A stretch of 46,200 nt of DNA from an uncultured Pseudomonadota bacterium (GTDB taxonomy: Bacteria; Bdellovibrionota_B; Oligoflexia; Oligoflexales; CAIYRB01), in NCBI GenBank assembly GCA_903915625.1, contig CAIWTN010000193.1, positions 1 through 46,200 on the forward strand, given 5' to 3'. Of this stretch, positions 5,358 to 29,993 are shown piece after piece. The first letter of the stretch is position 1. Every line of letters begins with the position of its first letter. The notes below the pieces were generated by a model. That model was not told the origin of the DNA and did not search any database. It was given only the letters and a program-made list of their open reading frames with translations. The position numbers and the translations under genes were made by a program.

Positions 5358-5547
5358 GACTCGACCTCATGATCTTGGTTGAGAGCTTTGCTGTTCCACA
5401 TCAGCTTGCTGCCTTATAAGACCCATCGGCATCTTAGGCGGGATGCTAAATGGGCAAATTTTTCCGTGCTGGCATCCAAGCTGTGGCATGGTTACTATAT
5501 TGAGATCTTTCGCTATCCCGCTATCCGTAGTTCCGGAGGTACCAATC

Positions 5548-6597
5548 TTGACCGTAGGCAAAAATTGGCTTGAGCGCCGTCTGTTGGGTTTGGTGATTAT
5601 TATTTTGACTGGTATCGCAGCTCTATCAGGTCAGTCCGGTCTAGCGAGCGGTACTTTGACCTATGGAAGTTTGCGATTTGACAAAAATAGCGTCGATTTC
5701 GGCGAAGCCTTTCGTGGTACACAGCTGACACACCGGTTTCGCTTTACCAACAGTGGTCCGGGACCACTGACTATCCAGGGAGTTCACTCCGCATGCAATT
5801 GCACTGCTATTGAAGTTGAGCGCGGCCGAAAGTATGAACCGGGCGAGACAGGTTTTATTGAGGTAACGCTCGATACTAGTGATTTTGCCGGTAACATAGT
5901 CAAGACCGTCACGGTGATTAGCAACGAAAGATTGTTGCCCGACCGAACTTTGACTCTCAAGGCAAAGGTCAAAACAGAAATTTTTGCCGATCCTCCTTTA
6001 GTTGATTTCGGTGATGTCAGACTTAAATCCGGTGACTCTAGAGTAGTCAGAATCAAGTCTGCACCAGGCAAGCCGCTTGAGGTGTCTGGGCTAGAATATA
6101 ATGAAAAAATCCTTTCGGCCAAAGTGGTGCGCGAACAAGATGATTGGGTCGTGACGGTCCAGCTAATGCCAGAGATTCCACCCGGTTTTCTCAAGGATTC
6201 CATAATTGTTCGTAACAACTCAGCTCACTTGCCGAAGCTAGTTTTGCCCGTGCGCGCGCTAGTTCTGGGCAATATTGAGCTGTCTCCCGGTTACATCGAG
6301 TTTGGTGCATTAGCTTCGACCGAGGCAGTACAGCGCTCGGTAACATTGCGCAGCACGGATACTTACAAAATAGTCAATATGCGCGGCGATATGCAAATTA
6401 ATGGACAAAAAGTTGAGCAGATTGCGAGTTACCTGAAGATTGAATCTCAACCGGCCTCGCAGGACACACAACTCATAAATGTCGAACTAAAAAATATTGC
6501 TAAACAGGCAGGGAGCGTTCGTGGCAAGTTATACATCGAGACCACAGATCCGACGCAGAAAGAGTTGTCAGTAGATTTTTATGCGCTCTTCCGTTGA
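5548..6597 (+). CDS. DUF1573 secreted protein
   Basis: A TTG start at 5548 is chosen because a near-perfect GGAGG (5535-5539) sits 8 bases upstream. The frame is open back to 5443, but the extra 35 residues have no ribosome site and would mask the signal peptide. From TTG the product has 349 residues: a basic N-terminus, hydrophobic helix (LLGLVIIILTGIAALSG), then DUF1573/Ig-like beta domains. The first, about residues 40-145, carries the family hallmarks D-F-G, FTNSG and the CNCTA motif; a second similar domain begins at about 150 (VDFGDVRL) and a third at about 250 (IEFGALAS). DUF1573 proteins are periplasmic or surface beta-sandwich proteins without a known enzymatic role. Confidence 0.75.
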   Translation: MTVGKNWLERRLLGLVIIILTGIAALSGQSGLASGTLTYGSLRFDKNSVDFGEAFRGTQLTHRFRFTNSGPGPLTIQGVHSACNCTAIEVERGRKYEPGETGFIEVTLDTSDFAGNIVKTVTVISNERLLPDRTLTLKAKVKTEIFADPPLVDFGDVRLKSGDSRVVRIKSAPGKPLEVSGLEYNEKILSAKVVREQDDWVVTVQLMPEIPPGFLKDSIIVRNNSAHLPKLVLPVRALVLGNIELSPGYIEFGALASTEAVQRSVTLRSTDTYKIVNMRGDMQINGQKVEQIASYLKIESQPASQDTQLINVELKNIAKQAGSVRGKLYIETTDPTQKELSVDFYALFR

Positions 6598-11416: not shown

Positions 11417-13459
11417 ATGGGCGCTGCTACTTGGACTGATGTGATCCTTGATCCAGAAAATCCGCCTAAGCAACTGGGGGCTCCGGCCTCCATAGGGGGC
11501 TCGTTCGTCTCGGCAATTGTCCTAACAGGGGTGGTGTTTCTGCTCTTTGCCAGGACCTGGGCCTTCCCCTTTGTGCCCTACGATGATGCAATTAATATCA
11601 CAGAAAATCCTCTTTTTGCTGTGGCTGGAGCGGAAACCTTCTCAGCAATTTGGCGGGCGCCTCTGCACAAGTTATACATTCCCTTGACCTATAGTGTCTG
11701 GGCTGGCGCTGCGCGTCTGGCTCGCCAGGGTCTCAGTGGCGATGGCTATCACGTTTTCGCCGCTAACTTGTTTCATGCCACCAATGTCTTACTTCATTTG
11801 TGGAATACACTATGGGTCGCTGCACTGCTGAGGCGCTGGATCAGGAGCGAGCTAGCCATCTTTCTCGCTGCGGCGGTATTTGCCATACACCCTTTACAAA
11901 GCGAGGCAGTGGTTTGGGTAACAGGCATGAAGGACCTCCTTTTTACGGCCTTTGCATTGCCGTCGATCTGGTGCTTGATTAATTTTGCCCGCGGCCAGTG
12001 GCGGCCATACTTTTGGTTAGCGCTAGCGACGCTTACTTACGCACTGGCGCTGTTGGCTAAACCCGCAGCTCTAGCGTTACCGCTGATAGTCTTAGTAGTT
12101 GGCTACTACGAACGTTTGCCACTACGTAGACTGCTAACCGTCTTCGTCGGATGGGTGTGTCTCGCGCTGCCTGTCATCGTAATGACATTCAACATACAGG
12201 CCGATACCGTGTCTAATCCAGCTGCGCTCTTGCAAAGGCCACTAATCGCTGCGCACGCTATCTGCTTTTATCTGATTAAACTGTTAGCCCCGATCAATAT
12301 GGCTCTGGATTATGGTGCGATGCCCAGCCGTGTGCTTACGCAAAGCGCACCTCTGTTTGCGCTGCTTTTTTTGTTGTTACTGGCGATGTGGCTTTGGCTA
12401 CGTCGCGCTGATGGATGGTGGTTTGGCGTAGCGCTATCCATTGCAGCATTGGCGCCGGTGTTAGGGCTGATACCTTTTGAGTTTCAAAGTCACTCTACAG
12501 TTGCTGATCGCTATATGTATTTGCCGATGCTTGGAGTTAGTGTGCTTCTTGCGATGTTGATCATGCGGTGGCAGCGAGCAGCTGTATTCACCTTGCCGAT
12601 TTTGTTGAGTTTGGCCTGGCTTAGCTACCGTCAGGTGTCTGTGTGGGCGAATCCTGATGCGCTTTTCAATCACACGCTGCGGATTAATCCAGGTAGTGTT
12701 TTAGCCTGGCAGTCGCTCGGTGCTGGCAGAATGACGGAGGAAAGATGGGGAGATGCGGTACCAGCATTTACCTCGGCCTTAAGTCTCAGGCCCCGCTTCG
12801 GTGATGCACTCTATAATTTGGGCTTAGCATATGAGCGGCTCGGCCGAGATGAGGATGCGCTGACACAATTCGCGATCGTTGCAATGAGCGGCGCACCGAC
12901 CGCAGCCAGTTTGGAGGGGGGCGCTAGAACGGCAAAGCGCCTTGGCCACTGGCAAGAATCCCTGCGCTATTTACACAGATGCGAAGAACTCTTCCCAGGG
13001 CGTGCCCAAACCGCTTGGTTACAGGCTGAAACCTTAGCTGCATCGGGAGATGTGAGCGCAGCCAAGTCGAGATTTGTAACGGCTATAGCGCGTCAGCCCA
13101 ATGCTTACGAGATTCATACTGCGTATGCCGACTTTCTCTCGGATCACGGCGAAGGTGGAACTGCAGTCACAGAATATAAAACTGCGCTAAGATTGGATCC
13201 GGGAGCCATAGCGGCACGGGTAAACTTGGCAGGGGTCCTTGCGCAGATGGGTAGTTATGAAGAAGCTGAGGCACAGTTGCGCGAGAGTATCCGGCAACAA
13301 CCTGGAATGGTTACCGCGCACGTTAACCTAGGTATCATGCTGGAACAGACCGGCGCCAAGCAGGCAGCAGCTGAAGCGTTTAAGCATGCTTTAACTTTGG
13401 ATCCCAACAGGCGTGATGCTGCCTCTGGTCTGGCTCGGATAGTCGGGTCTAGATCATGA
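11417..13459 (+). CDS. TMTC-like GT-C glycosyltransferase with TPR domain (paralogue 1)
   Basis: 680 residues. About ten transmembrane helices fill residues 30-405, followed by six or seven TPRs from about 425 to the end (DALYNLGLAYERLGRDEDAL, ARVNLAGVLAQMGSYEEAE). The first extracytoplasmic loop has the acidic Y-D-D-A-I-N motif (Asp56-Asp57) where GT-C enzymes place their catalytic acid. Other array hallmarks are H-A-T-N-V-L-L-H (120-127), H-P-L-Q-S-E (158-163) with VTGMKDLL, AKPAA (214-218), and V-A-D-R-Y-M-Y-L-P (362-370), resembling the DUF1736 region of eukaryotic TMTC protein O-mannosyltransferases. It probably transfers a sugar from a polyprenyl-phosphate donor outside the inner membrane, with TPRs guiding acceptors. 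The start is the first usable ATG; no good ribosome site is seen. Its stop overlaps the next start by 4 nt. Confidence 0.75.
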   Translation: MGAATWTDVILDPENPPKQLGAPASIGGSFVSAIVLTGVVFLLFARTWAFPFVPYDDAINITENPLFAVAGAETFSAIWRAPLHKLYIPLTYSVWAGAARLARQGLSGDGYHVFAANLFHATNVLLHLWNTLWVAALLRRWIRSELAIFLAAAVFAIHPLQSEAVVWVTGMKDLLFTAFALPSIWCLINFARGQWRPYFWLALATLTYALALLAKPAALALPLIVLVVGYYERLPLRRLLTVFVGWVCLALPVIVMTFNIQADTVSNPAALLQRPLIAAHAICFYLIKLLAPINMALDYGAMPSRVLTQSAPLFALLFLLLLAMWLWLRRADGWWFGVALSIAALAPVLGLIPFEFQSHSTVADRYMYLPMLGVSVLLAMLIMRWQRAAVFTLPILLSLAWLSYRQVSVWANPDALFNHTLRINPGSVLAWQSLGAGRMTEERWGDAVPAFTSALSLRPRFGDALYNLGLAYERLGRDEDALTQFAIVAMSGAPTAASLEGGARTAKRLGHWQESLRYLHRCEELFPGRAQTAWLQAETLAASGDVSAAKSRFVTAIARQPNAYEIHTAYADFLSDHGEGGTAVTEYKTALRLDPGAIAARVNLAGVLAQMGSYEEAEAQLRESIRQQPGMVTAHVNLGIMLEQTGAKQAAAEAFKHALTLDPNRRDAASGLARIVGSRS

Positions 13460-15129
13460 TGACGAACATGCAGAAGCATAAGATTGGTTGGATGTGCTGC
13501 TTTGGGCTTATTTTATGCGTACTTTATTTATACCGTGATTTGCCTGGTATGACCTACCTACTTTGGGATGACGATCTACTCGTAACCGAAAATGCAATAC
13601 TAAGTCTGCCCTTTACCGCGGCGACTAGGGCAGCTTTTGGTGGTTATTATAATGGCGATTATATACCGATCAGTTTGATGTCTTATTGGTGTGAAGTTAG
13701 AGTGGCCGGATTCCTTCCTGTCGTGCAGCACGTGAATAATCTGCTGCTTCACATCTTTAACATCTTTCTAGTATGGGTATGGTTGCGGCGTTTTTCCTCA
13801 CTAAGTCCGTTTCTTTTTCTGATCGTTGCTGTCTTTGCCATTCATCCCCTGCAAGTAGAGAGTGTGGCTTGGGTCAGTGAGCGTAAGGGGCTATTAGCAA
13901 CGACCTTCTATTTATTAGCCCTGATTTGCGCCAGTAAGGTGGAGGTAAACCGGCGGGCTCAGTTGCGCTGGGATATAGCGTATATAGTCTTTTTTATCTT
14001 GGGTGCGTTATCTAAAGCTAACGGCATTTTTATACCGATATGGATTGCCTTATCGACTGCGCTCAGTCAAAGGCGTTGGATCCCACTAGGTTGGCCTAAG
14101 CACATCTCAGCGCTGGCTGTTGCCTTTGGATTTTCGGTGGTGAGAGTGCTCGCGTATGCAAGTGCGATTCCTCAATTCGGATCTCTGGCGCTGTCGCCGG
14201 ACAGGTTGTTGGCATGGCCACTAATGACCTTGGCAGCTTTGGGTTTCTACGTCAAAATGATCATAGCTCCCTTGGATTTGTCGATAATTTATCCATCCTT
14301 CACTAGTGCCTCTGATTGGGCGAGCCAAATACTGTGGGGAACCTGCGCGTGCCTCTTCTGGGTGGGAGGTGTTGTCTGGCTGAGGCTTAGGGAAGCACTA
14401 AACTGGTTGTTGTTTGGCCTGCTCACTTTGGCTCCCGTCTTAAACTTGGTGCCACGCATTAACTTTGTGAACGATCGCTATATTTATTTGCCTCTTATTG
14501 GCTTTGTCTCTTGCACGCTATTAATCCTCCAGGCCCTGTGGCTGCGTTGGCAAGACCGAGCTAATAGAGCTGGATATCAAAATCGTTTGAAGCCGATATT
14601 CGTGGGAATATGCGTAGTCTTCATCGCTTTTTGTGCCTGGCTCAGTAAACACCGTGTAGCCGTGTGGTCATCGAATATTACCCTGTGGAGTGATACCGTA
14701 AATAAGGTTCCATTAAGTAGTCTTGCTCAAAATAATCTGGGCCAAGCCTTTCAGAATCAAGGAAGCATTTCAGATGCTATTGTTCACTATCAAAAAAGTT
14801 TAGACATTGCAGTTGATTCTGGGTCAACGAATCTTGCATATAATAACCTGGCGACGATATATAGCTCGCGACAGTATCCGCAGTACTTTAATCTGCCGTT
14901 AGCGCGTTCGCTTCTTGAGTCAGGAATTGCACGTGTGTCAAGGCCGGATGACAGCTTAGTACTCCGCTTTAATCTTGCGCTTGTGCACCTTCAGGCAGGT
15001 GATCTTTTGGCGGGTAAGCAGGCTCTTGCAGATCTATTGGCTCGCCTGGAATTGAGTCCTAATCAGCGCTACCTGTTTCTTGTAGAACGCGTCGCTCAGC
15101 TGCAGAAAACATTGGAGGCGGCGCAATGA
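13456..15129 (+). CDS. TMTC-like GT-C glycosyltransferase with short TPR tail (paralogue 2)
   Basis: 557 residues with the same architecture: membrane helices to about residue 400, D-D-D at 38-40 (LLWDDDLLVTEN), HVNNLLLH at 92-99, H-P-L-Q-V-E at 130-135, N-D-R-Y-I-Y-L-P late in the membrane part, and a short TPR segment from about 425. It is the most divergent member: the VTGxKDLL motif is VSERKGLL, the KPAA motif is SKANG, and the DYGxxP motif is IIYPS. It may therefore use a different donor or acceptor from its neighbours. It is joined to paralogues 1 and 3 by ATGA overlaps, so it is translated from the same message. Confidence 0.75.
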   Translation: MMTNMQKHKIGWMCCFGLILCVLYLYRDLPGMTYLLWDDDLLVTENAILSLPFTAATRAAFGGYYNGDYIPISLMSYWCEVRVAGFLPVVQHVNNLLLHIFNIFLVWVWLRRFSSLSPFLFLIVAVFAIHPLQVESVAWVSERKGLLATTFYLLALICASKVEVNRRAQLRWDIAYIVFFILGALSKANGIFIPIWIALSTALSQRRWIPLGWPKHISALAVAFGFSVVRVLAYASAIPQFGSLALSPDRLLAWPLMTLAALGFYVKMIIAPLDLSIIYPSFTSASDWASQILWGTCACLFWVGGVVWLRLREALNWLLFGLLTLAPVLNLVPRINFVNDRYIYLPLIGFVSCTLLILQALWLRWQDRANRAGYQNRLKPIFVGICVVFIAFCAWLSKHRVAVWSSNITLWSDTVNKVPLSSLAQNNLGQAFQNQGSISDAIVHYQKSLDIAVDSGSTNLAYNNLATIYSSRQYPQYFNLPLARSLLESGIARVSRPDDSLVLRFNLALVHLQAGDLLAGKQALADLLARLELSPNQRYLFLVERVAQLQKTLEAAQ

Positions 15130-16805
15130 TGAAGCAATTCTGTTTGACTTGGGCGCGCCGATATTGGCCAATTTTTCTTGTGCTTGTTGCTGTTGTCACC
15201 ATTTATGGGCGCACCGTTGGATACGATTTTGTTAGCTGGGATGACGACCAGAATATAACGCAGAATCCTTTGTTTCAACGCGGTGATTGGTGGAAGTTTT
15301 GGACTGAGCCGTTCATCGGAATGTATGTTCCAGTTGTTTACACCTTGTGGTATGGGTTGCTGCGTCTATCAACCCCAGCGAATCCTATGCTTTTCCATGC
15401 TGTTAACGTCGTAATGCATCTAGTCAATGTCATTTTGGTCTATGCCATAGCCCGGCGTACGGAAGAGCATTTAAACTCAGGATCAAGGGATTTCTCTTCG
15501 GCAGCTTTCATTGCTGGCCTTATCTTCGCTCTGCATCCACTTCAGGTCGAGTCGGTAGCTTGGGTAACTGGCCTACGTGATCTCTTATGTTGCTTCTGGA
15601 TCTTACTTGCGACTTTTTTTAGTCTTTCTAGCCCATCATCAAAATCTAGTCATTTTTATGCTTTTCTCGCCTTTATCATAGCGGTGCTTTGCAAGCCAGC
15701 GGCTGTGGTGTTGCCGGTGATATTGGTTGTCATGTCTACTTTTTGGGGCATCTCTACTCTACGCAAACTATTTTTTAGATACCTTCCCTGGGTACTGGTG
15801 TCTGCCTTGGTGGTATGGTCGACCGCGCATATACAAACAGAAGTCATAAGTTTTGCTGTGCCACCGCTAAGTTTCGCAAAAAGGCTATTGATCGCCATCG
15901 ACAGCTTTGGGTTTTATCTAGGTAAATTCGCGGCTCCTTTCGGACTAGCTGTCGATTATGGGCGCACTCCTGAAAACGTATTAGGCAGTCAAAGTTACTA
16001 TTTGAGCATCTTCTGCTTGACGCTATCGGTGAGCGTATTAGCTCTTGGCTGGAGAAGGCTAAGGGCGATTGACTGGGGCTGGTTGCTGTTTGCAGCCATG
16101 ATGATGACTCCGACATCCGGCATCGTGCCATTTGCGTTTCAGCATGTCTCTAGTGTAGCGGATCACTATGCATACATACCTATTGTAGGCATAGCTATCT
16201 TTCTAGGATTACAAATCGCCAGACTTCCACGGAGATTCGCGATTGGGATTGCCTTGGTGTTAAGCGTATATTTGACGGCGATCTCGCTGCAGCGAGTGGC
16301 AATTTGGCGAGATGATAAGACACTATACCCTGTGATGATTGCTGCGAACCCCGATAGCTTTGCAGGCCAGATTGGTATGCTGGCTATTGCTATGCGGGAG
16401 GAACGCTACCAGGATGCGCTACCATATTTGCGTAACGCGGAAAGAATTGAGCCTACTAATGTAGTCACGCTACTAGATAAATGGCTACTATATGCTCGTC
16501 TCGGTCGCTATCAGGACGTGATTGCAGATGCTCCAGGGCATATTTTGACTAAAGAAAAAATTACCGCCAATCCAAACTCAGCCTCAACCATTGCCGCTCA
16601 GTATGTCGTCTTGGCATACGCGCAGATGCAGCTTGGCAAATTATTCGAAAGCCTGGCCACTGTATGTTTAGCGCGCTTTGCTGATCCAGAAAATAATGAT
16701 GCTAAGAATTTCATGCCCTATTTAGGGCAGAGGTTGAAATTGACGATGTCACCAGAACAGTGGTGCCTTGAAAACGAGAAATTGTGGACACCCCTAGGCC
16801 GCTAG
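15126..16805 (+). CDS. TMTC-like GT-C glycosyltransferase with short TPR tail (paralogue 3)
   Basis: 559 residues: multi-spanning membrane part to about residue 400 with SWDDDQNI (Asp39-41), FHAVNVVMH at 90-98, H-P-L-Q-V-E at 137-142 with VTGLRDLL, CKPAA, VDYGRTP and V-A-D-H-Y-A-Y-I-P, then two or three degenerate TPRs (YQDALPYLRNAERIEPTN). The R-to-H change in the VADRY motif is unique in the array. It is the last gene of the overlapped trio (ATGA with paralogue 2), and its end overlaps the convergent GT2 gene by 12 bp. Expected role: extracytoplasmic sugar transfer from a lipid-linked donor. Confidence 0.75.
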   Translation: MMKQFCLTWARRYWPIFLVLVAVVTIYGRTVGYDFVSWDDDQNITQNPLFQRGDWWKFWTEPFIGMYVPVVYTLWYGLLRLSTPANPMLFHAVNVVMHLVNVILVYAIARRTEEHLNSGSRDFSSAAFIAGLIFALHPLQVESVAWVTGLRDLLCCFWILLATFFSLSSPSSKSSHFYAFLAFIIAVLCKPAAVVLPVILVVMSTFWGISTLRKLFFRYLPWVLVSALVVWSTAHIQTEVISFAVPPLSFAKRLLIAIDSFGFYLGKFAAPFGLAVDYGRTPENVLGSQSYYLSIFCLTLSVSVLALGWRRLRAIDWGWLLFAAMMMTPTSGIVPFAFQHVSSVADHYAYIPIVGIAIFLGLQIARLPRRFAIGIALVLSVYLTAISLQRVAIWRDDKTLYPVMIAANPDSFAGQIGMLAIAMREERYQDALPYLRNAERIEPTNVVTLLDKWLLYARLGRYQDVIADAPGHILTKEKITANPNSASTIAAQYVVLAYAQMQLGKLFESLATVCLARFADPENNDAKNFMPYLGQRLKLTMSPEQWCLENEKLWTPLGR

Positions 16806-17627
16806 ATGATTCTCGGAAGTATCCTTGGTAGCGGTAGGCTGAATCCTGCGGATGCGGCGATAAAGGCGCAAGGTATCGACGAGTACCGACCAGCCAACTT
16901 TGGCGATATGTAGCATCTCTGGGATTGCGGATCTGGAGTTACTACCAAAATAGTCCAGGCGCACAGGTGCCTCTAAAAACCTTTTGTAGCCCGTCGCGCG
17001 GGCGAGTGCCAGGATCTCAAGGTCAGCGCCATAGCGATCGACGGTTAGGTGCGGTAATATTGATTCGATAACTTCTCGCTTAAATAGCTTGAGTCCTACT
17101 TGTGTATCAGTGACATTCATGTCGAATAGTAGTCGGACCAATAATTGGTAAATGGAACTAAGAACTCGGCGAGTCCTTGGGTATTCAATTTGTGATTGCG
17201 GATGTCGCTTTGACGCAACCACGACATCTGCGTCGTACAACTCCATCAAGCCAATGAATATCCGAATCTCACGTGGATGCAGCTCCATGCCGCCATCAAT
17301 AAATAGTACAAAGTCACCGCTAGCTGCCTTGAATCCCTCTCGTAACGCGTAGCCTTTGCCATGATTTTCAGGATAACAGATCAATTTTGTCCGCGGATGA
17401 TCATACGATTTAAGCACGCTATCAGTTCCGTCCGTGCTCCCATCGCTCACAACTAGAATTTCGAATGAAGAGAAATAGGGAGCCACCTCTGATATGAGCA
17501 AGTCGAGATTGGTCCGAATGCGCGCCGCTTCATTGAAAACTGGAACTATGACAGATAACGATAGATCTCGGAGAGATCCGTAAACGTTCGTTCGCTTTCG
17601 ATGTTGGGTTGAGCTTGCGACGGGCAT
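16794..17627 (-). CDS. GT2 glycosyltransferase, polyprenyl-phosphate sugar synthase-like (DPM1/ALG5 type)
   Basis: 277 residues with a GT-A fold: VIVPVFNEAARI at about 26-37, SDGSTDGT at 61-68, NHGKGYALR at 88-96, and the lipid-sugar-synthase signature D-T-Q-V-G-L-K-L-F near residue 183. Relatives make dolichyl- or undecaprenyl-phosphate mannose/glucose, the donor used by GT-C enzymes such as the neighbouring TMTC-like proteins. No membrane helix is visible, so it resembles soluble DPM1-like forms. The usual DxD metal motif is D-G-G-M-E (111-115), which is unusual. An AGGAGG site lies 10 bases before the ATG. It is divergent from paralogue 4 and convergent with paralogue 3. Confidence 0.8.
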   Translation of the reverse strand: MPVASSTQHRKRTNVYGSLRDLSLSVIVPVFNEAARIRTNLDLLISEVAPYFSSFEILVVSDGSTDGTDSVLKSYDHPRTKLICYPENHGKGYALREGFKAASGDFVLFIDGGMELHPREIRIFIGLMELYDADVVVASKRHPQSQIEYPRTRRVLSSIYQLLVRLLFDMNVTDTQVGLKLFKREVIESILPHLTVDRYGADLEILALARATGYKRFLEAPVRLDYFGSNSRSAIPEMLHIAKVGWSVLVDTLRLYRRIRRIQPTATKDTSENHLAA

Positions 17628-17692
17628 GAATAACCACCCTCCTAGTTCAATGTTCGGGTGAAATCCGTCTAAACTTTAATCAGTTTGCAGTT

Positions 17693-17722
17693 TTGAGTGT
17701 GAGGCTAAACTTCCGGTATAGT
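17693..17722 (+). promoter_or_regulatory. candidate sigma-70-like promoter for paralogue 4
   Basis: TTGAGT (17693-17698) and TATAGT (17717-17722) are separated by 18 bp, about 100 bases before the ATG at 17821. The 193-bp divergent gap between the GT2 gene and paralogue 4 must contain promoters for both. This is a pattern match only. Confidence 0.35.
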
Positions 17723-17820
17723 CTTGATTAATTAGGTGGTTGGCGCCAAATCTGGCAGAAATTGCTTTCATTTGGTTAAAAATCTACAATTTTTAATAAC
17801 ATCAAATTAGGGAATTACTA

Positions 17821-19767
17821 ATGAAGCTGAAAAAGCGCGGCGTGCTGCTGATGCTTATTGCCGCCCTGGTCTTTATGACCTTCGCCGCGACTTTGCGATT
17901 TGGCTTTCTTGAACATGATGACGATCAGAATATTGTGAAAAACCCTGATCTACAGGCTCTGACCTTTGACCAATTGACGTCTTTTTGGACGCGACCACAC
18001 CTCGGTCTCTATATACCGGTGACCTATACTTACTGGGGGGCCGGGGTCGCTTTGTCGCGCCTAGGGCAAGATCCGAATACGCCTCAGGCACCAAACCCGA
18101 GCTTGTTTCATGCTGGTAATCTCCTGTTGCATATTATGAATGGATGGATGCTTTGGATGTTGCTAGTGGCTATGGGTGCGAAAGAGTGGGGGGCGCTGCT
18201 AGGCTGTCTACTTTTTCTGTTACATCCAATGCAGGTGGAAGCTGTGTCTTGGATTACCGGAGCTAAGGATCTACTGTGCGGATTTTTATCCTTAGCATCA
18301 ACATTAGTTTTTCTCAGATACTTGCAGCATCAGCCTGATAGGAAGCACAGAAAGTCGAGGGATTATTCTCCTGCCTATTATGTAGCTGCTACAATTCTAT
18401 CAATTTTTGCAATTCTTGCGAAGCCGGCTGCAGTCGTGCTGCCTTTTGTGTTTTTTATCTTAGCGTCGATTTACTCGCGAAAAACTTGGTGGCGGCACTT
18501 GTTTATGATTATTCCACAGCTTGTTGTGGGAATACTTGTCGTTAAGACCACGTCGATCGCGCAAATCCCGGAAGGTCCGTTACCAGTAGTACTCTGGTGG
18601 CAGCGCCCAATCGTAGCGGGTGATGCCGTGCTTTTTTATGTAAAGAAATTATTTTGGCCGTTTGGGTTTGCTGTGGATTATGCGCGACGACCAGATATGG
18701 TTGCCGCCGATCCGATGTTATGTCTTCTTGCCTTCATACCGATGATTATCGGCCTAGCATTAGTCTATCGTCGCCGTCAGTTTCCCTTGCTTTTTGTTAG
18801 CTTGCTCACATTTGGAGTCTTGCTTGCACCAAACTTGGGGCTTATTAGCTTCTCAAACCAGTTTTTGACCACAGTTTGTGACCGCTATGCTTATCTAGCC
18901 ATGACAGTTCCGGCGTTTTTATTATCGAGATTGTCGCTGGACCATTTGAAAGTCTATATCCCTAAAGTTACCGCTCGTGGCTACTACGCAAGTGTTGCAA
19001 TTATTTTGGTGTTCTTGGCGGCACTTAGTAATCGTCAGGTAAATTATTGGGCTAATGAGCGGGCGTTATTTCAGCACAGCATCGACATTGAGCCGAATGG
19101 GGTAATGGCGTTGGTGGGTCTCGGCAATGATGCGGCGAACAATAAAAATTGGGAAGATTCGATCAAGTACTTCAGCAATGCATTGAACTTAAGGCCCGAC
19201 TGGGGTCGGGTGCATAACAACCTAGGTAATAGTTTCATCAACGTAAATAGATTGGTTGAGGCGACCGAATCACTGCAGAGAGCCATTGCAGTATTTCCAT
19301 CGTACCCCCTGGCCTTTAATAACTTGTGTGGTGCATTAGCCCGACGCGAGATGTGGGAAGATGCAGCGGCTGCATGCCGCAATGCTCTTCGGCTCGCTCC
19401 TGACTTTTATATGTCCTACCAAAACCTCGGTTACATCGCGGCTAAGCAAGGTCAAAATGAAAAGGCGGAACAGTATTTTCGTGATGCTATCCGCATTGCG
19501 CCGATTGATATTCCACCAAGAATGAATTTAGTGCGAATTTTAAAAATTCAAGAAAAATGGGACAAGTTATCAATAGAATTGGAGGTTTTATCGCGGATGT
19601 TGCCGCATGACATAAACCTCGCCTTAGATCTGGCAGCTACTTACGAAAAGTTAGGCAAAGTCGACCAAGCACGAGCCGTCGTTAAAAATTTCCCTTTAGA
19701 TCCATCGGACACGCGTAGCGCAGCAACGATTCATGCCGCGCTGCAAGGCCTCGGAGGTTATCGCTGA
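17821..19767 (+). CDS. TMTC-like GT-C glycosyltransferase with TPR domain (paralogue 4)
   Basis: 648 residues. The membrane part to about residue 405 has HDDDQNI (Asp33-35), FHAGNLLLH, H-P-M-Q-V-E with ITGAKDLL, AKPAA, VDYARRP and C-D-R-Y-A-Y-L, the same series of motifs as paralogues 1 and 3. The C-terminal part has about six TPRs (VHNNLGNSFINVNRLVEATE, YQNLGYIAAKQGQNEKAEQY). AGGGA precedes the ATG by about 8 bases. It is transcribed separately from the other three, from the divergent promoter region shared with the GT2 gene. It is expected to be an inner-membrane enzyme using a lipid-phosphate sugar, with the TPR domain presenting acceptors; the acceptor is unknown. Confidence 0.75.
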   Translation: MKLKKRGVLLMLIAALVFMTFAATLRFGFLEHDDDQNIVKNPDLQALTFDQLTSFWTRPHLGLYIPVTYTYWGAGVALSRLGQDPNTPQAPNPSLFHAGNLLLHIMNGWMLWMLLVAMGAKEWGALLGCLLFLLHPMQVEAVSWITGAKDLLCGFLSLASTLVFLRYLQHQPDRKHRKSRDYSPAYYVAATILSIFAILAKPAAVVLPFVFFILASIYSRKTWWRHLFMIIPQLVVGILVVKTTSIAQIPEGPLPVVLWWQRPIVAGDAVLFYVKKLFWPFGFAVDYARRPDMVAADPMLCLLAFIPMIIGLALVYRRRQFPLLFVSLLTFGVLLAPNLGLISFSNQFLTTVCDRYAYLAMTVPAFLLSRLSLDHLKVYIPKVTARGYYASVAIILVFLAALSNRQVNYWANERALFQHSIDIEPNGVMALVGLGNDAANNKNWEDSIKYFSNALNLRPDWGRVHNNLGNSFINVNRLVEATESLQRAIAVFPSYPLAFNNLCGALARREMWEDAAAACRNALRLAPDFYMSYQNLGYIAAKQGQNEKAEQYFRDAIRIAPIDIPPRMNLVRILKIQEKWDKLSIELEVLSRMLPHDINLALDLAATYEKLGKVDQARAVVKNFPLDPSDTRSAATIHAALQGLGGYR

Positions 19768-23965: not shown

Positions 23966-24718
23966 ATGTTGCCACCTACATTCGGCGAGAAAGTCATTTT
24001 AGTGACGGGCGGCAGTCGTGGAATTGGCCGGGCTATGGTCGAGACCTTCGCTGCAGGCGGCGCTCGGGTCATTTTTACACACGTCCAAAATAGCGATGCA
24101 GCAACAGAGCTTGAAGGTACTCTAAGGTCGAAGGGCTACACAGTCAGCGCCGCGAAAGCTGACGTTCGGCTTGCTGCTGATGTCGACGCTTTAGTCGAGG
24201 GCATTGAGCGCGAACATGGTCGACTTGACGTACTGGTAAATAATGCCGGCGTTGCTAAAGACGCTCTTATTATGGGTATGGACGAAAAGGCCTGGTCAGA
24301 TGTTATTGCGACTAATTTGACCGGTGCATTTCATTGTATCAAAGCTGCGACTCAGATGATGATGCGCCGCCGACAAGGAGTGATCATCAATGTCTCCTCT
24401 CTGGTTGCTACGCGTCCAGGTCGAGGCCATTGCAATTATGCAGCATCAAAGGGAGGCCTTGAGGCTATGACCAAGGCCTTGGCGGTAGAATTGGCGCCCA
24501 GGAATATTCGCGTCAACTGTGTCGCTCCGGGTATGATTGTCACCGACATGAGTAAAGAGGTGCGCGATTTAGCGGGTGATCAAATTTTGGCCCGAATTCC
24601 TCTTAAAAGGTACGGCAATCCCGAGGAGGTTGCGGCCGCAGTTCGTTTCCTGGCTAGCGACGACGCAGCCTATATTACGGGGACTACGTTGCACGTGGAT
24701 GGTGGGCTTATCGTCTAA
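23966..24718 (+). CDS. 3-oxoacyl-ACP reductase (FabG-like SDR)
   Basis: 250 residues, classical short-chain dehydrogenase. NADP-binding TGGSRGIG at 14-21, NNAG at 92-95, and the catalytic set Ser144/145, Tyr158 and Lys162 (YAASK), plus the C-terminal I-T-G-T-T-L-H-V-D-G-G-L signature of FabG. It reduces beta-ketoacyl-ACP to the 3-hydroxy form. As first gene of an operon with an acyl carrier protein, dehydratase and ketosynthases, it most likely serves a dedicated secondary acyl-chain pathway and not housekeeping fatty-acid synthesis. GGAG at 23955-23958 precedes the ATG. The acyl carrier protein follows after 52 bp. Confidence 0.92.
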   Translation: MLPPTFGEKVILVTGGSRGIGRAMVETFAAGGARVIFTHVQNSDAATELEGTLRSKGYTVSAAKADVRLAADVDALVEGIEREHGRLDVLVNNAGVAKDALIMGMDEKAWSDVIATNLTGAFHCIKAATQMMMRRRQGVIINVSSLVATRPGRGHCNYAASKGGLEAMTKALAVELAPRNIRVNCVAPGMIVTDMSKEVRDLAGDQILARIPLKRYGNPEEVAAAVRFLASDDAAYITGTTLHVDGGLIV

Positions 24719-24770
24719 GTCCAAGGAGCAATATTCATATTTGTTAACCTGATGAGATGGGAGTGCCGGG

Positions 24771-25202
24771 ATGAAAACGATCGAACGAGTCCGAGCAGTT
24801 ATTGCTGATGCCCTTTATGCGGATCTGGATAAGGTTACGCCGACAGCAATTCTGATGGCAGACCTTGGTGCCGAGAGTATCGACTTTTTGGACATTATGT
24901 TTCGGCTCGAGAAGGAATTTAACATCCGTCTACCACGCGGTGAGATCGAGCAGAAGGCACGTGGACGACTGAGCGATGCAGAATTTGCTGTGGAAGGTCG
25001 TATCACCGACGCAGGCCTGGGTAACTTACGCGCAATGATGCCTGAAGTTCCCGCGGCGGCATTTAAAGCGAATCTGCATTTACGCGAGATCCCAACGCTT
25101 TTCACTGTGGGGACATTCGCTCGCATGGTTCAAGAGCAGTTGGATTTAGAAGCGGGTGTTAATGTGTCTGCAACGGCAGACACCGCTGTACCACTTTCTT
25201 GA
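24771..25202 (+). CDS. acyl carrier protein, elongated
   Basis: 143 residues, much longer than a standard ACP of about 80. The helix-1/loop/helix-2 pattern is clear, with the phosphopantetheine attachment serine at Ser36 in G-A-E-S-I-D-F-L (a variant of D-S-L-D). After LEKEFNIRLPRGEIE there is an insertion of about 40 residues before the final helix (IPTLFTVGTFARMVQEQL), where a normal ACP would already end. Such insert-bearing ACPs occur in specialised lipid and arylpolyene-type clusters. It should carry the growing chain between the neighbouring enzymes. Confidence 0.85.
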   Translation: MKTIERVRAVIADALYADLDKVTPTAILMADLGAESIDFLDIMFRLEKEFNIRLPRGEIEQKARGRLSDAEFAVEGRITDAGLGNLRAMMPEVPAAAFKANLHLREIPTLFTVGTFARMVQEQLDLEAGVNVSATADTAVPLS

Positions 25203-25253
25203 TTAGATGTTCCATTAGGTTCAAAGTTGGATTAGTTCTGCGGGAGAACTGGC

Positions 25254-26114
25254 ATGCGGTTTTTGTTTGTCGACGCTATCACTAGCATCGGTGAAGGGGC
25301 GATTTCAGGTTATCGTCATTTTCCGGTGACGGATCCTATGCAATACAGCCCGCATGTTGGCCCCGCTCAAGTGGCGTCGGGAGCAATGTGCGAGGCTGTG
25401 GGGCAGTTGGCCTCATGGTATTGCTTAAAGCAGAATAAATTTCAAAGCCGACCCGTGTTTTTATTTGCTGATAGCATCGATGTACTGAAACCAGTGTACG
25501 TCGGTGCTAGGGTCGACTTACGAGCAGAAATTCACTCCTTAGAAGACGACGCATTTCGGTTTAGCGGTGAAGCTTTGGTGGACGGCGAGGTCTGTCAACG
25601 TATCAACGACTGCGGTGGTATGTTTATGCCGCTGGCTAATCTTGAAGACCCAGACGTAGCAGCGGCGCGTTTTGAATCGCTTTGTTCTGGTGGTCTAGTT
25701 CTGGACGGTGCCGCGGGATCTCCGTATCCGTTTGCAAATTTAGTTGGCGAGATTTTGGACCATGACGAGGGTCGCAAGATTCATGCGCGTCGCACTTTTA
25801 ATGCCTCCGAACCTTTTTATGCCGATCACTTTCCACGGTTTCCGGTGACTCCAATTGTCATGCTCAACGAGATGATCGGACAGGCTACAGTTCGTATGCT
25901 GGGCCTTAGTCGTGACACGGCCCTGCGGCCACTGGCGATTAGTCGCATTAAAATCAGATCCTTTGTGGCACCGGGTGACTCCTGTGAAACGGTTGTGACC
26001 TCACCGGGTATCCGGACAGTTGGTAGTCGTAAGCTGCTGGATGCTACCGCCGAATTAATTAAGGGCGGCAAGCGCATCTTGCGCGGCGAGTATTTTTATG
26101 AAGTTACGGAGTGA
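25254..26114 (+). CDS. double-hotdog 3-hydroxyacyl-ACP dehydratase (FabZ/FabA-like)
   Basis: 286 residues made of two hotdog halves. The C-terminal half has F-Y-A-D-H-F-P-R-F-P-V-T-P (188-200) followed by NEMIGQA, closely matching the FabZ active-site segment, with His192 in the catalytic position. The N-terminal half has the matching YSPHVGPAQV-SGAMCEAVGQLA segment (31-54), where HFP at 22-24 occurs but the normal spacing is altered, so it may be non-catalytic or hold the partner acid. It should dehydrate 3-hydroxyacyl-ACP to the enoyl form. No enoyl reductase gene is in the operon, so double bonds may be retained. Confidence 0.75.
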   Translation: MRFLFVDAITSIGEGAISGYRHFPVTDPMQYSPHVGPAQVASGAMCEAVGQLASWYCLKQNKFQSRPVFLFADSIDVLKPVYVGARVDLRAEIHSLEDDAFRFSGEALVDGEVCQRINDCGGMFMPLANLEDPDVAAARFESLCSGGLVLDGAAGSPYPFANLVGEILDHDEGRKIHARRTFNASEPFYADHFPRFPVTPIVMLNEMIGQATVRMLGLSRDTALRPLAISRIKIRSFVAPGDSCETVVTSPGIRTVGSRKLLDATAELIKGGKRILRGEYFYEVTE

Positions 26115-26119
26115 TTTAG

Positions 26120-27409
26120 ATGACGACTACTGCTACTTCCGCACCGAATCAATCTGTAAAACGCCCGCAAAAAAGACGGGTTGTTATCACGGGCATTGGT
26201 GCTGTGACGCCACTTGGGAACACACTGTCTGACACGTGGAACGGCTTGCTTGAGGGGAAGCTCGTTGCTGCTCCGATCAAGCGTTTTGACGCTGCGGACT
26301 ACCCGAGTCAGATTGCTTATGAAGTAGCTGATTTTAAACTGCGTCGCGAGCTGCTCCAAACCGGTGAGGAGATGTATTTAAACGATGCGACCAGCTTTGC
26401 GGTAAATGCAGCGGCCGAGGCAATGGAGCAAGCGCAGCTCACTAGTGTGCAAGTCGACCCTAGTCGCACGGCGGTTTGTTTCGGCAATGGTCTCACCTGT
26501 CCTGGCCTAGATTGGTACAGCGAAGTCTATGTGCCGAAGAAGTTCGATGACCCAAGCTTTACCAATCACATTCGATTTTTTGCTGATCAAATTAGTTCGG
26601 TCTTAGGACGGATGATAGGAGCTCAGGGTGGAGTCACAACGATCCACACCGCATGCGCTTCCTCTGGTCAAGCGCTTGGCGAGGCCTATGAAATGATCGC
26701 CTATGGTGACGCTGATCTAGTGCTCACTGGCGGCTCTGACTCGATGATTAATCCATTTTCTGCAGCGGGATTTGCGTTGCTCGGAGCCCTGTCGCATCGC
26801 AATGATGAGCCAAAGACGGCTTCTCGACCATTCGATCGTGATCGTGACGGATTTGTGTTTGGTGAGGGTGCCTGTGTTCTGATTTTTGAGGATTACGAGC
26901 GGGCCATCCAACGTGGTGCAAATATTATTGCCGAGGTCTGTGGCTACGGTGTCACCGAATCCGCATATCGTATCACCGACCTCCATCCCGAAGGTAGGGG
27001 GCCTATCGAGGCCATGGAGATGGCCCTTAATGATGCTGAGATCGAGTCCAGTGCTGTGGGATATGTGAATGTACACGGTACATCAACGCAGTTGAATGAC
27101 CGGATCGAAGCTCTGGCTATAGCCAAAGTGTTTGGCGAGTATTCACAAAGCATGTTTGTGAGCTCAACCAAGAGCATGACCGGGCACATGATTGCCGCCG
27201 CTGGTGCCATCGAGTTTGCTTTTTGCGTCATGGCGCTGAAGCATCAATTACTGCCGCCTTCGATAAATATTTTCGAGGCCGACCCTGATTGCCGCATTAG
27301 CCTTACTCCAATGAAAGTTACGACTCATGCGATGCGTTACGCGCTTTCAAACTCAGTGGGCTTTGGCGGTTCGAATACAGCAATTATTGCTGGGAGGATC
27401 GACACATGA
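26120..27409 (+). CDS. beta-ketoacyl-ACP synthase (FabF-like, active subunit)
   Basis: 429 residues, thiolase-fold KAS II type. The complete catalytic set is present: Cys179 in H-T-A-C-A-S-S, His319 in N-V-H-G-T-S-T, Lys351 in SSTKSMTGH and His356. A C-terminal GFGGSN loop is also typical. It condenses malonyl-ACP with the acyl chain. It starts 5 bp after the dehydratase stop, and its own stop overlaps the start of the next gene (ATGA), which encodes a related protein without catalytic residues. This resembles the ketosynthase/chain-length-factor arrangement of type II polyketide synthases. Confidence 0.92.
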   Translation: MTTTATSAPNQSVKRPQKRRVVITGIGAVTPLGNTLSDTWNGLLEGKLVAAPIKRFDAADYPSQIAYEVADFKLRRELLQTGEEMYLNDATSFAVNAAAEAMEQAQLTSVQVDPSRTAVCFGNGLTCPGLDWYSEVYVPKKFDDPSFTNHIRFFADQISSVLGRMIGAQGGVTTIHTACASSGQALGEAYEMIAYGDADLVLTGGSDSMINPFSAAGFALLGALSHRNDEPKTASRPFDRDRDGFVFGEGACVLIFEDYERAIQRGANIIAEVCGYGVTESAYRITDLHPEGRGPIEAMEMALNDAEIESSAVGYVNVHGTSTQLNDRIEALAIAKVFGEYSQSMFVSSTKSMTGHMIAAAGAIEFAFCVMALKHQLLPPSINIFEADPDCRISLTPMKVTTHAMRYALSNSVGFGGSNTAIIAGRIDT

Positions 27410-28686
27410 GTGCTGACGAGCTTGTAGTAACAGGTTTAGGGGCTGTTACCGCAGCTGCCATTGGCAGCCAGGCACATTGGGACTGCTTCCAACATCTAGG
27501 CAAATCGCCAAGATCTGCTGAAGACTATGGTCTAGCGCAGTTCAAAGCCACAGAACATGTTCGCGACCGGAGGCAGCTCAAGAGTGTATCTCATGCTGAT
27601 GGTATCGGGTTATCTGCTATTAATGGCTTAATCACGGATTCCGGTTATCAAGTTGGATACTACAGCTCAGAACGAATTGGCGTCTATGTTGGAGCAGCAG
27701 GTGCCACAGTTGCCGACAATGACGGATACATGGATGCGCTGATCGCCGCCACCGGACCTAATGGTCAAGTCTCAAGTCCTCGCTTTGGTAAAACTAGCAC
27801 GACATCTAGACCGGTGACGCTGCTTGTTGGTTTGGCCAATAACGTCTTGTGCTACGGTTCGCTACTTCTCGACGCAAGGGGCCCTAATTCAAACTATGTA
27901 TCCTCGTCGACCAGTGCGCACCTGGCTTTGATCAATGCTGCGAAAAGGCTAGCTCGCGGTCAAATCGATATGGCCGTGGCTGGTGGCTATTCTTTAGCGA
28001 CAGATCCGGCTTACGCAGCGATGTTTAAAAAGCTTGGTCTTTTGCGAGAGGAAGTGGCTGAGGAGAGGGTGCAAGATAACTCCCCAAATAATTCCCCAAA
28101 TAATTCCTACGCTTTGAGGCCGTTTCAGTCCGATGCTCCGGCGGGGACCATCCTTGCAGACGGTGCCGCGTTTGTGATCATTGAACGTCGCGCTGCGGCG
28201 ACGGCGCGAGGCGCGAAGGTCTTGGCGCAATATTGCGGTGGCGCAATAGGCAGTGATGGACTGGGCCCGAAGCGTTTTGATCCTAATGGAGTTGCGCTAA
28301 TCGCTACCATAACCCGTGCCTTGTCTGCCGCTGGCATCAGCAGTAATGACATAGGGCTCGTCCTGAGCGGCGCGAGTGGGGTCAAGGCTGTTGATCAAGT
28401 CGAGCTAAGGGCGTTAAGACAAATTTTTAATTACGGAGCGCATTCTCCCGCGTTGGCCGTCACTTCACGCGTGCTCGGCAATCTGTTGGAAGCTGGCGGC
28501 ATCATTGAATTGGCGTTGGTATCTGAACTTTATAAATCCGATCGGATTCCAGAAAGTATTAGTCCTGATGTTGCGTTGGCGCCATTTCAACAAATTGTGA
28601 ACCGAGCGAAGCCATACGCGCTAGTACTCCGCAGTAGTCCGTGGGGTGAGTATAGCTGTGTGGTGGTCAAGCGAGAGGTCGTATGA
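27406..28686 (+). CDS. ketosynthase-like partner without catalytic residues (chain-length-factor-like)
   Basis: 426 residues with KAS fold features (VVTGLGAVTAAA at 7-18, AVAGGYS). By alignment with its active neighbour the nucleophile Cys is Ser168 (V-S-S-S-T-S), the N-V-H-G motif is L-S-G-A, and SSTKSMTGH becomes VTSRVLGN, so both histidines and the lysine are lost. It cannot be a normal condensing enzyme and most likely forms a heterodimer with the upstream ketosynthase, setting chain length. In classical type II PKS partners the Cys is replaced by Gln; here it is Ser. A small in-frame tandem repeat, NSPN, lies at about residues 225-233. It overlaps both neighbours by 4 nt. Confidence 0.82.
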   Translation: MSADELVVTGLGAVTAAAIGSQAHWDCFQHLGKSPRSAEDYGLAQFKATEHVRDRRQLKSVSHADGIGLSAINGLITDSGYQVGYYSSERIGVYVGAAGATVADNDGYMDALIAATGPNGQVSSPRFGKTSTTSRPVTLLVGLANNVLCYGSLLLDARGPNSNYVSSSTSAHLALINAAKRLARGQIDMAVAGGYSLATDPAYAAMFKKLGLLREEVAEERVQDNSPNNSPNNSYALRPFQSDAPAGTILADGAAFVIIERRAAATARGAKVLAQYCGGAIGSDGLGPKRFDPNGVALIATITRALSAAGISSNDIGLVLSGASGVKAVDQVELRALRQIFNYGAHSPALAVTSRVLGNLLEAGGIIELALVSELYKSDRIPESISPDVALAPFQQIVNRAKPYALVLRSSPWGEYSCVVVKREVV

Positions 28687-29912
28687 AGTCTTTAGTCACA
28701 AGTCAAAATATTGATGGTGGTGAAGTGAATCTACTAATCACTGGTGGTACTGGGTTTGTTGGCAAGGCGGTACTGGCGCGTTTAGTCGATCAACCCGGCT
28801 TTGATAAAATATATATGTTGGTCAGATCGAGGCCAGGGGCCAGCCCTGAGCAGCGTGTTGCTCGCATGATTGGGCAAATGTTTCCGAAAGCACGCGCTTC
28901 TCAGATACTTGAGCGTGTGCACGCCGTAGAGGGTGACCTAACCTTATCGGGCTTAGGACTGAAGCCTGAGGATTTAGACCTGCTGCGTACGAATGTGCAC
29001 CAGATCCTTCATTGCGGTGCTAGTACTGAGTTTGGTGCGCCCCTGGAGGAAGCTAGGCTAAATAACACCGAGGGTACCTTGCGGGTACTCGAGGTGGCGA
29101 CCACGCTGAGACAAACTGGTGTGCTAAAACGTCTGGAATACATCTCAACAGCTTATGTGTGCGGAACAAAAAGAGGTGTAGTTACCGAATCTGACTTAGA
29201 TAGAGGCCAAAAATTCTCCAACTCCTACGAGCAGAGCAAATTCGAAGCCGAAGTGTTAGTCAGTCAATTTGCCAAGAAGTTGCCAATTACCGTGTACCGG
29301 CCGTCGATTGTTGTAGGGAATTCTCATAACGGCTACACCCCACATTTTAAGGTCCTTTATTGGCCCATTCTTCTGATGTCGAAGAATTTAGTGTCATTTA
29401 TCTTCTGCAACAAGAGGGCTTTTCTTGATGTAGTGCCAGTGGATTTTGTTGCTGATTCGATTGTTGCGCTGATGCAGCAGGAGTCGACCACTGGACAGAC
29501 ATATCTTTTAACTGCGGGACTTGGTCGCGAAATTCGTATTGGCGATATCCTGCGCGACTCTTATGATTTGGCTGGTATCACGAAGCGGCCGGTCATCCCT
29601 TTTTGGCTATTTGATATCGTGTCTAAGACTCCGCTGGCTAGGCTACTTCCTGAGCAGTTCTGGTCTGTTGCTAATCTAGCGAAACCTTATTACAGCTATC
29701 TGCGCGGTAATGCTGTGCGTTTTGATGCCAGTAAGACGCTTAAATTATTAAAGCAGTTAGATGTCAGTCCACCAAATTGGAAAGACTATAAGCGCGAGAT
29801 CCTCAACTTCTGTTTGGCTAGCCGGTGGGGTAAGCGCCTACCGTTGCCAGAATATTCGTACTATCTGCCGGCTAGGTTGGGGCCTGATGGCGATGTGCAA
29901 GTTGTTTCGTAA
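28683..29912 (+). CDS. SDR-type thioester/fatty acyl reductase (male-sterility family)
   Basis: 409 residues. The extended SDR fold has T-G-G-T-G-F-V-G at 20-27, a YVCG segment near 158, and the catalytic Y-E-Q-S-K (Tyr182, Lys186); R-P-S-I-V-V-G follows. These are the marks of the NAD_binding_4/FAR family, which reduces acyl thioesters to aldehydes or alcohols and is used as a reductive chain-release module. The position as last gene of the acyl-chain operon, overlapping the dead ketosynthase by 4 nt, suits reductive release from the ACP. A sterol- or sugar-epimerase-like role is a less likely alternative. Confidence 0.8.
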   Translation: MKSLVTSQNIDGGEVNLLITGGTGFVGKAVLARLVDQPGFDKIYMLVRSRPGASPEQRVARMIGQMFPKARASQILERVHAVEGDLTLSGLGLKPEDLDLLRTNVHQILHCGASTEFGAPLEEARLNNTEGTLRVLEVATTLRQTGVLKRLEYISTAYVCGTKRGVVTESDLDRGQKFSNSYEQSKFEAEVLVSQFAKKLPITVYRPSIVVGNSHNGYTPHFKVLYWPILLMSKNLVSFIFCNKRAFLDVVPVDFVADSIVALMQQESTTGQTYLLTAGLGREIRIGDILRDSYDLAGITKRPVIPFWLFDIVSKTPLARLLPEQFWSVANLAKPYYSYLRGNAVRFDASKTLKLLKQLDVSPPNWKDYKREILNFCLASRWGKRLPLPEYSYYLPARLGPDGDVQVVS

Positions 29913-29943: not shown

Positions 29944-29993
29944 AGGCATTAGCCGCTTTTCTGGGTTTTTTCTGAAGACTACAAGTGGGTACC

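Follow-up and report, generated by a model that had tools for sequence, protein, structure and literature searches.

We found that the window, by which we mean the whole 46,200-nucleotide stretch of DNA that was analysed, carries four distinct TMTC-like GT-C transferases (A–D) and, probably, a donor-charging enzyme, and we put it at somewhat better than an even call that this locus serves periplasmic protein O-glycosylation by the mechanism set out below. For A–D themselves, the most likely function is protein O-glycosylation in the periplasm fed by a polyprenyl-phosphate-sugar, with the TPRs choosing the acceptors; we infer their sugar and acceptor from homology and analogy.

Table 1 Features of the GT-C/TPR locus (positions in the window).
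Feature	Position	Strand	Description
Gene A	11417..13459	+	680 aa; GT-C membrane domain ~30-410, strong TPR domain ~416-675
Gene B	13456..15129	+	557 aa; GT-C domain 1-418 and one clear TPR; most divergent member
Gene C	15126..16805	+	559 aa; GT-C domain 1-412 and degenerate TPR-like C-terminus
GT2 glycosyltransferase	16794..17627	-	277 aa; candidate polyprenyl-phosphate-sugar synthase; Pfam GT2 1.3e-27
Intergenic region	17628..17820		193 bp; GT2 and D diverge from here
Gene D	17821..19767	+	648 aa; GT-C domain 1-412 and ~7 TPRs at 413-643

The four open reading frames reported in a preliminary description of this DNA are all present with the positions and lengths it gave (Table 1), and the ATGA overlaps by which it joined three of them can be read in the sequence as 4-bp overlaps at the A/B and B/C junctions. 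Its four-member array holds as to the four genes, but a GT2 glycosyltransferase gene that it did not mention interrupts the series, and the genome totals 13 such GT-C/TPR genes. This GT2 gene is the most informative neighbour of the array; it lies between C and D in convergent orientation, its 3′ end and that of C sharing 12 bp. A scan for promoters and terminators returned counts at chance level, with a single promoter-like match (17693–17722) in the GT2/D intergenic region.

The membrane domains of all four proteins align (23–32% identity to D), and HHalign comparison of an A/C/D-type profile with the B profile gave a similarity far beyond chance (E = 4.8e-58). DD, N-x3-H, HPxQxE, K, P and D-x-Y-x-Y are invariant in the A–D alignment. 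Among 186 homologues, D33 is conserved in 179, D34 and H135 in 182 each, E140 and K201 in 180 each, and the loop residues D354 and Y358 in 173 and 183, and every one of these residues is kept in A–D; B is without the M3 Asp and the M5 Asp, one or the other of which is missing in about half of the GT-C/TPR family. The motifs initially described as shared were present in part: DD, N-x3-H, HPxQxE and D-(R/H)-Y-x-Y occur in all four proteins, whereas (C/A)KPAA gives way to SKANG in B, and DYGxxP to IIYPSF in B and DYARRP in D. A–D belong to a large family of bacterial GT-C membrane glycosyltransferases with C-terminal TPR repeats, within which the four diverged from one another long ago.

Pfam searches of A–D revealed no GT-C family above the cutoff (the sole membrane-domain match was DUF6020 in D, E = 0.0013, below cutoff), and a fold search was needed because a PDB profile search with the GT-C alignment gave no match. 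AlphaFold predicted D with high confidence (pLDDT 94.0, pTM 0.91), giving a membrane part made of helices and, after it, a TPR solenoid; Foldseek of this full-length model returned TPR proteins, with no GT-C enzyme among the 50 matches listed, and a second model was therefore restricted to the GT-C domain, in this case that of B (pLDDT 90). Searched against the PDB, the B model gave GT-C enzymes as all of its first 16 matches (yeast and human OST STT3, AglB, PglB, ArnT (5f15/5ezm), Pmt4 and DPY19), with a Foldseek probability of 1.00 for the first 15 and 0.89 for DPY19; E-values were modest (best 8e-4), the ranking nonetheless being entirely GT-C. The GT-C-only search was of B, and the fold of A, C and D rests on homology; membership of A–D in the GT-C enzyme class is well supported. 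ArnT, PglB/STT3, Pmt4 and DPY19 share with A–D the membrane fold, the acidic first loop and, probably, a lipid-phosphate or -diphosphate donor, but have no TPR domain and show 10–16% identity in structural alignments.

The N-terminus and cytoplasmic loops of D are basic (+4, +5, +3) and its DD loop is acidic (+2/−6), and this charge pattern together with the model places the TPR domain of D in the periplasm. Structure prediction and fold search bear out the GT-C fold with a periplasmic-side TPR domain that had been suggested. A C-terminal TPR domain, claimed for all four proteins, is strong in Pfam for A (E down to 1e-24) and D (down to 1e-23), whereas B has a single repeat (E = 8.7e-7) and C remains below the Pfam cutoff (best E = 0.014, 16.1 vs 25 bits).

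Strictly speaking, A–D are not TMTCs: they have no DUF1736 match, and their M4 metal-ligand Glu is replaced. The Pfam check proposed in the preliminary description fails for all four proteins, as PF08409 (TMTC_DUF1736) is absent from the matches listed for A–D at E ≤ 1 (for gene A, the best 25 of 27); the same profile gave no match in the organism's own genome and 58 genomes of the phylum, and among 40 further bacterial genomes it scored above the cutoff in 3. HHalign profile comparison supports homology to bacterial DUF1736-bearing proteins (99.9%, E = 8.7e-32, 384 columns). Like animal TMTC1–4 (CAZy GT105 O-mannosyltransferases), A–D have a GT-C domain with a first-loop Asp-Asp, a conserved Lys and an acidic-(R/H)-x-x-Y loop, the same motif order (M1, M2 Y-x-P, M3 D, M4 K, M7), and C-terminal TPRs on the non-cytoplasmic side. 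The M1 Asp-Asp of the first periplasmic loop is found in all of A–D and in at least 179 of the 186 homologues. In contrast to TMTC1–4, the M4 KE reads KP in A, C and D and KA in B, with the Lys retained; M5 D-W reads D-Y in A, C and D and I-Y in B; M7 E-R-x-x-Y reads D-(R/H)-Y-x-Y throughout, retaining an acid and the Tyr with Glu changed to Asp; and M2 SYRP is LYIP-like. In the published model, the M4 Glu of TMTCs coordinates metal. With KP/KA at M4, and neither M3 nor M5 Asp in B, metal or donor binding must differ in detail from that of TMTCs. Animal TMTCs put mannose on cadherins; we rejected cadherins as acceptors here, as a search of nine genomes, six of them from the genus, showed no cadherin domain (PF00028).

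Full-length prokaryotic TMTC homologues, such as AMJ42_05695, were already noted in 2021 by Eisenhaber et al. (PMC7801869), and these, together with the DUF1736-positive proteins L136–L138, have the same architecture and clear homology; A–D, however, are not part of the DUF1736 clade but belong to a larger group in which KP or KA replaces KE. The organism's own genome holds one relative within that clade (C15, L124:8404–10059).

We then consider the GT2 gene as the candidate donor maker. Its eight best PDB matches include GtrB (sll0501), ArnC and DPMS, as well as chondroitin synthase. GtrB, ArnC and DPMS are polyprenyl- or dolichyl-phosphate-sugar synthases, and the likeness covers the GT2 catalytic domain (residues 18–191); GtrB is longer (341 vs 277 aa), and the similarity stops before its C-terminal part, which carries transmembrane helices. 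An orthologue is present in 6/6 genomes of the genus (70–94% identity), and outside the genus only weaker GT2 matches (37% and 28%) were found, in two other genera. Phyletic co-occurrence of GT2 and GT-C genes is confounded by shared ancestry. In the sampled contexts, each of the eight closest homologues beyond the array loci has a GT-C/TPR gene no more than 3 kb away (8 in 748 kb vs 0 in 950 kb). Since GT2 homologues of other phyla occur in these contexts only near GT-C/TPR genes, GT2 probably makes the polyprenyl-phosphate-sugar donor for A–D.

Four genomes of the genus have kept the A-B-C-GT2-D array, and dN/dS values of 0.08–0.19 for its genes reveal purifying selection. GT-C/TPR paralogues number 13 in the organism's own genome, 10–15 per congener and 0–2 elsewhere in the order, and reach 28 in a single genome within a set that was chosen for having matches. 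Orthologues of A occur in 5/5 congeners, B is missing from the A–C pair of congeners G001 and G002, and of the four genes D is the most conserved in the comparison of G000 with G005 (94%). In the tree, A, B, C and D form separate clades older than the split of the congeners. A recent tandem duplication was rejected, because each gene groups with its own orthologues, and D with a paralogue elsewhere in the genome. The dN/dS values and the age of the clades indicate that the function of the array genes is maintained. In C111 (L121), another paralogue in the same genome, R, Q and S stand in place of the first Asp, the Lys and the loop Asp, and this protein has the most TPR matches of the paralogues scanned.

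In the mechanism we propose, GT2 would, by homology, move a hexose from an NDP-sugar onto undecaprenyl phosphate at the cytoplasmic face, and a flippase would turn the lipid-phosphate-sugar over to the periplasmic side. Each GT-C domain (~11 transmembrane helices, N-terminus inside) would bind it at the periplasmic face, where the first-loop Asp-Asp, the conserved Lys and the D-(R/H)-Y-x-Y loop may serve phosphate or metal binding and catalysis. By analogy with TMTC1–4, the periplasmic TPR solenoids, which differ among paralogues, would recruit different secreted or membrane proteins, and these would receive the O-linked sugar; the TPRs of TMTC1–4 as acceptor readers are a published proposal (PMC11292533). 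A bolder version, speculative and in our view rather unlikely, would have one dedicated polyprenyl-phosphate-sugar synthase feed 10–15 lineage-expanded TMTC-like transferases, each TPR solenoid reading another class of envelope protein, through a KP-type active site whose chemistry differs from the one in animal TMTCs.

The leading alternative, to which we assign a clearly minor likelihood, is that A–D are polyprenyl-phosphate-sugar-dependent, ArnT-like GT-Cs acting on glycolipids or surface polysaccharides (lipid A, O-antigen side branches, exopolysaccharide), with TPRs that bring the enzymes together in envelope complexes and do not bind protein acceptors. ArnT is not only among the fold matches but also the closest solved relative of TMTCs (PMC7801869), ArnC is among the solved relatives of GT2, and the Pfam-annotated genes adjoining the array include no obvious protein-glycosylation marker. 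Against this, the TPR is a protein- or peptide-binding module, Pfam finds no LPS or capsule genes in the window, 13 divergent paralogues seem too many for decorating one polymer, and proteins are the substrates of the characterised TMTC relatives.

It is improbable, in our estimate, that the family is one of pilin glycosylation, with TPR readers and with type IV pilin-like or pseudopilin proteins as the main acceptors, for which TfpW of Pseudomonas, a GT-C pilin glycosyltransferase, may be cited. At six loci, one of them that of the A–C pair of G002, a prepilin gene does sit no further than 1.5 kb from a GT-C/TPR gene, but prepilins are only weakly enriched there (6 in 428 kb vs 7 in 1365 kb, one-sided p = 0.066), none of the six prepilins shares a strand with its neighbouring GT-C/TPR gene, the organism's own genome has 6 prepilin matches against 13 enzymes, and no prepilin was found in the window. 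A first look had counted 14 prepilins in named loci, a suggestive figure that proved weak in the larger set. Equally doubtful is that the paralogues, or some of them, lack catalytic activity and serve as TPR receptors or scaffolds with a retained GT-C membrane part: this would suit TPR-rich C111 and the Asp losses of B, but A, C and D retain every family-conserved residue, B retains DD, E, K and D-R-Y-x-Y, such Asp losses are common in the family, and the array genes are under purifying selection.

Bacteria carry many TMTC-like GT-C/TPR proteins, and the literature found, judged by title and abstract, describes no characterised bacterial GT-C/TPR enzyme and gives no function for any of these proteins. 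The locus makes a compact test case: it combines four different enzymes with an adjoining gene that probably makes their donor, and congeners carry orthologous arrays. If periplasmic protein O-glycosylation by A–D is the correct reading, acceptor choice by a TPR solenoid on a GT-C enzyme would be a bacterial strategy too, and the finding would bear on the origin of animal cadherin O-mannosylation.

The four open reading frames A–D, which the preliminary description had given as 680, 557, 559 and 648 residues, were confirmed at these lengths and at the stated coordinates, as were the ATGA overlaps at the A/B and B/C junctions; a further gene, GT2, encoding a candidate polyprenyl-phosphate-sugar synthase of 277 residues, was absent from that description and lies between C and D. 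Alignment (A1) retained DD, N-x3-H, HPxQxE, the Lys, the P and D-x-Y-x-Y as common to all four proteins, whereas KPAA and DYGxxP, also listed as shared, are not universal: B carries SKANG and IIYPSF in their places, and D has DYARRP at the DYGxxP position. The proposed C-terminal TPR domain is strong in A and D and consists of one repeat in B, but is sub-threshold in C (Pfam).

Features and loci discussed in the text (L-numbers, fetched loci outside the window).
Feature	Position	Strand	Description
DUF1573/HYDIN gene	5443-6597		Ig-like-domain protein
A	11417-13459	+	GT-C/TPR
B	13456-15129	+	GT-C/TPR
C	15126-16805	+	GT-C/TPR
GT2	16794-17627	-	glycosyltransferase
D	17821-19767	+	GT-C/TPR
Fatty-acid-like cluster	23966-29912		compact gene cluster
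LMF	29985-31469		lipase maturation factor homologue
C111	L121:2440-4782		own-genome paralogue
C15	L124:8404-10059		own-genome paralogue
GT2–D segment	L129:1001-7249		congener G002

Pfam returned no family above cutoffs for the membrane part of A–D. The model of the GT-C domain of B, the most divergent member (pLDDT 90, pTM 0.91), matched GT-C enzymes only in its first 16 PDB matches by Foldseek (OST STT3, AglB, PglB, ArnT, Pmt4 and DPY19; E 8e-4 to 0.16; the first 15 at probability 1.00, DPY19 at 0.89), which bears out the suggested GT-C fold for this membrane part. The D model (pLDDT 94) placed a TPR solenoid C-terminal to the membrane part, and Foldseek with full-length D gave TPR proteins and no GT-C enzyme among the matches listed; for A, C and D the fold assignment therefore depends on homology to B (HHalign of the A/C/D-type profile against the B profile, E 4.8e-58). 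Cytoplasmic loops are basic and the first loop acidic, charges that fit a predicted N-in topology, in which DD and TPR face the periplasm.

We compared the published TMTC motifs M1–M7 (PMC7801869) with the family alignment column by column. M1 DD, M2 Y-x-P, M3 D (in A, C and D), M4 K and M7 acid-(R/H)-x-x-Y are retained, whereas M4 E is P in 135/186 homologues and A in B, M5 W is Y, and M7 E is D. Contrary to the expected DUF1736 assignment, PF08409 had no match in A–D; it matched over cutoff in 3/40 sampled bacterial genomes. Our family profile is homologous to these bacterial PF08409-positive proteins (384 columns, E 8.7e-32). In the tree these proteins make up a clade of their own, which includes one own-genome protein, C15. 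Given the negative PF08409 result and the M4 change, A–D are TMTC-like in build yet outside TMTC by its defining Pfam and M4 features. Prokaryotic full-length GT-C+TPR homologues were already noted in 2021 (PMC7801869). C15 itself, on a long branch with the DUF1736-type proteins, carries YRP, KE and EHxxY and is nearer animal TMTCs than A–D.

The own genome holds 13 GT-C/TPR genes, five congeners 10–15, and other genera of the order 0–2. With 58 genomes obtained for the phylum against 300 sought, the label Proteobacteria is probably loose. G005 shares the gene order A-B-C-GT2(-)-D adjoining ffh, as do G004 and G003 apart from inserted genes; G001 and G002 retain the A-C pair, from which B is absent, with GT2 still close to D in G002. 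In G002, the segment separating GT2 from D encodes HAD, a class II aldolase, NTP transferases in tandem and a protein that combines a kinase domain with a stretch weakly resembling Alg6/Alg8. Since A, B, C and D each fall in a supported clade of their own and the closest own-genome non-orthologue of D lies on another contig, the array is an old assembly, and recent duplication as its origin is ruled out. Between the own genome and G005, dN/dS was 0.15 (A), 0.19 (B), 0.17 (C), 0.08 (D) and 0.08 (GT2). Members of the family often occur in tandem: the 186 genes include 28 neighbouring pairs on the same strand, among them a row of five in one planctomycete locus (L142). C111 has the most TPR matches among the paralogues scanned and has lost key residues (first DD Asp to R, Lys to Q, loop Asp to S), making a non-catalytic receptor possible; the sole member detected in one sister-genus genome (G006) groups with it.

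Elsewhere in the window, the fatty-acid-like cluster comprises SDR, ACP, FabA-like, two ketosynthase (the second a weaker match) and male-sterility-type reductase genes, followed by LMF.

Solved relatives of GT2 include GtrB, ArnC and dolichol-P-mannose synthase. GT2 occurs in 6/6 genus genomes (70–94% identity); elsewhere in the order, two genera gave only weaker matches (37% and 28% identity). Across 140 fetched loci, drawn from several phyla as well as the genus, 8/8 GT2 homologues outside array loci (one, L123, from the own genome) lay within 3 kb of a GT-C/TPR gene and 0 in the 950 kb beyond; chance is about 0.0014 at this 3-kb split, a limit set post hoc with the data already seen, and 0.022 for the first bin (<1.5 kb). 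This linkage is the strongest evidence for a polyprenyl-P-sugar as donor substrate of the GT-C enzymes.

Prepilin genes lie close to some GT-C/TPR genes, although the excess is weak, and a search of the genus for cadherin domains found none. The DUF1573/HYDIN protein, whose gene keeps its place upstream of the ffh-array block in three congeners, is a conceivable Ig-like acceptor. The TPR domain favours a protein acceptor, as does the analogy with TMTC1-4 (PMC11292533). The donor would be a polyprenyl-P-sugar, presumably flipped across the membrane as the lipid-P-sugar, and the TPRs may choose the putative protein acceptors.
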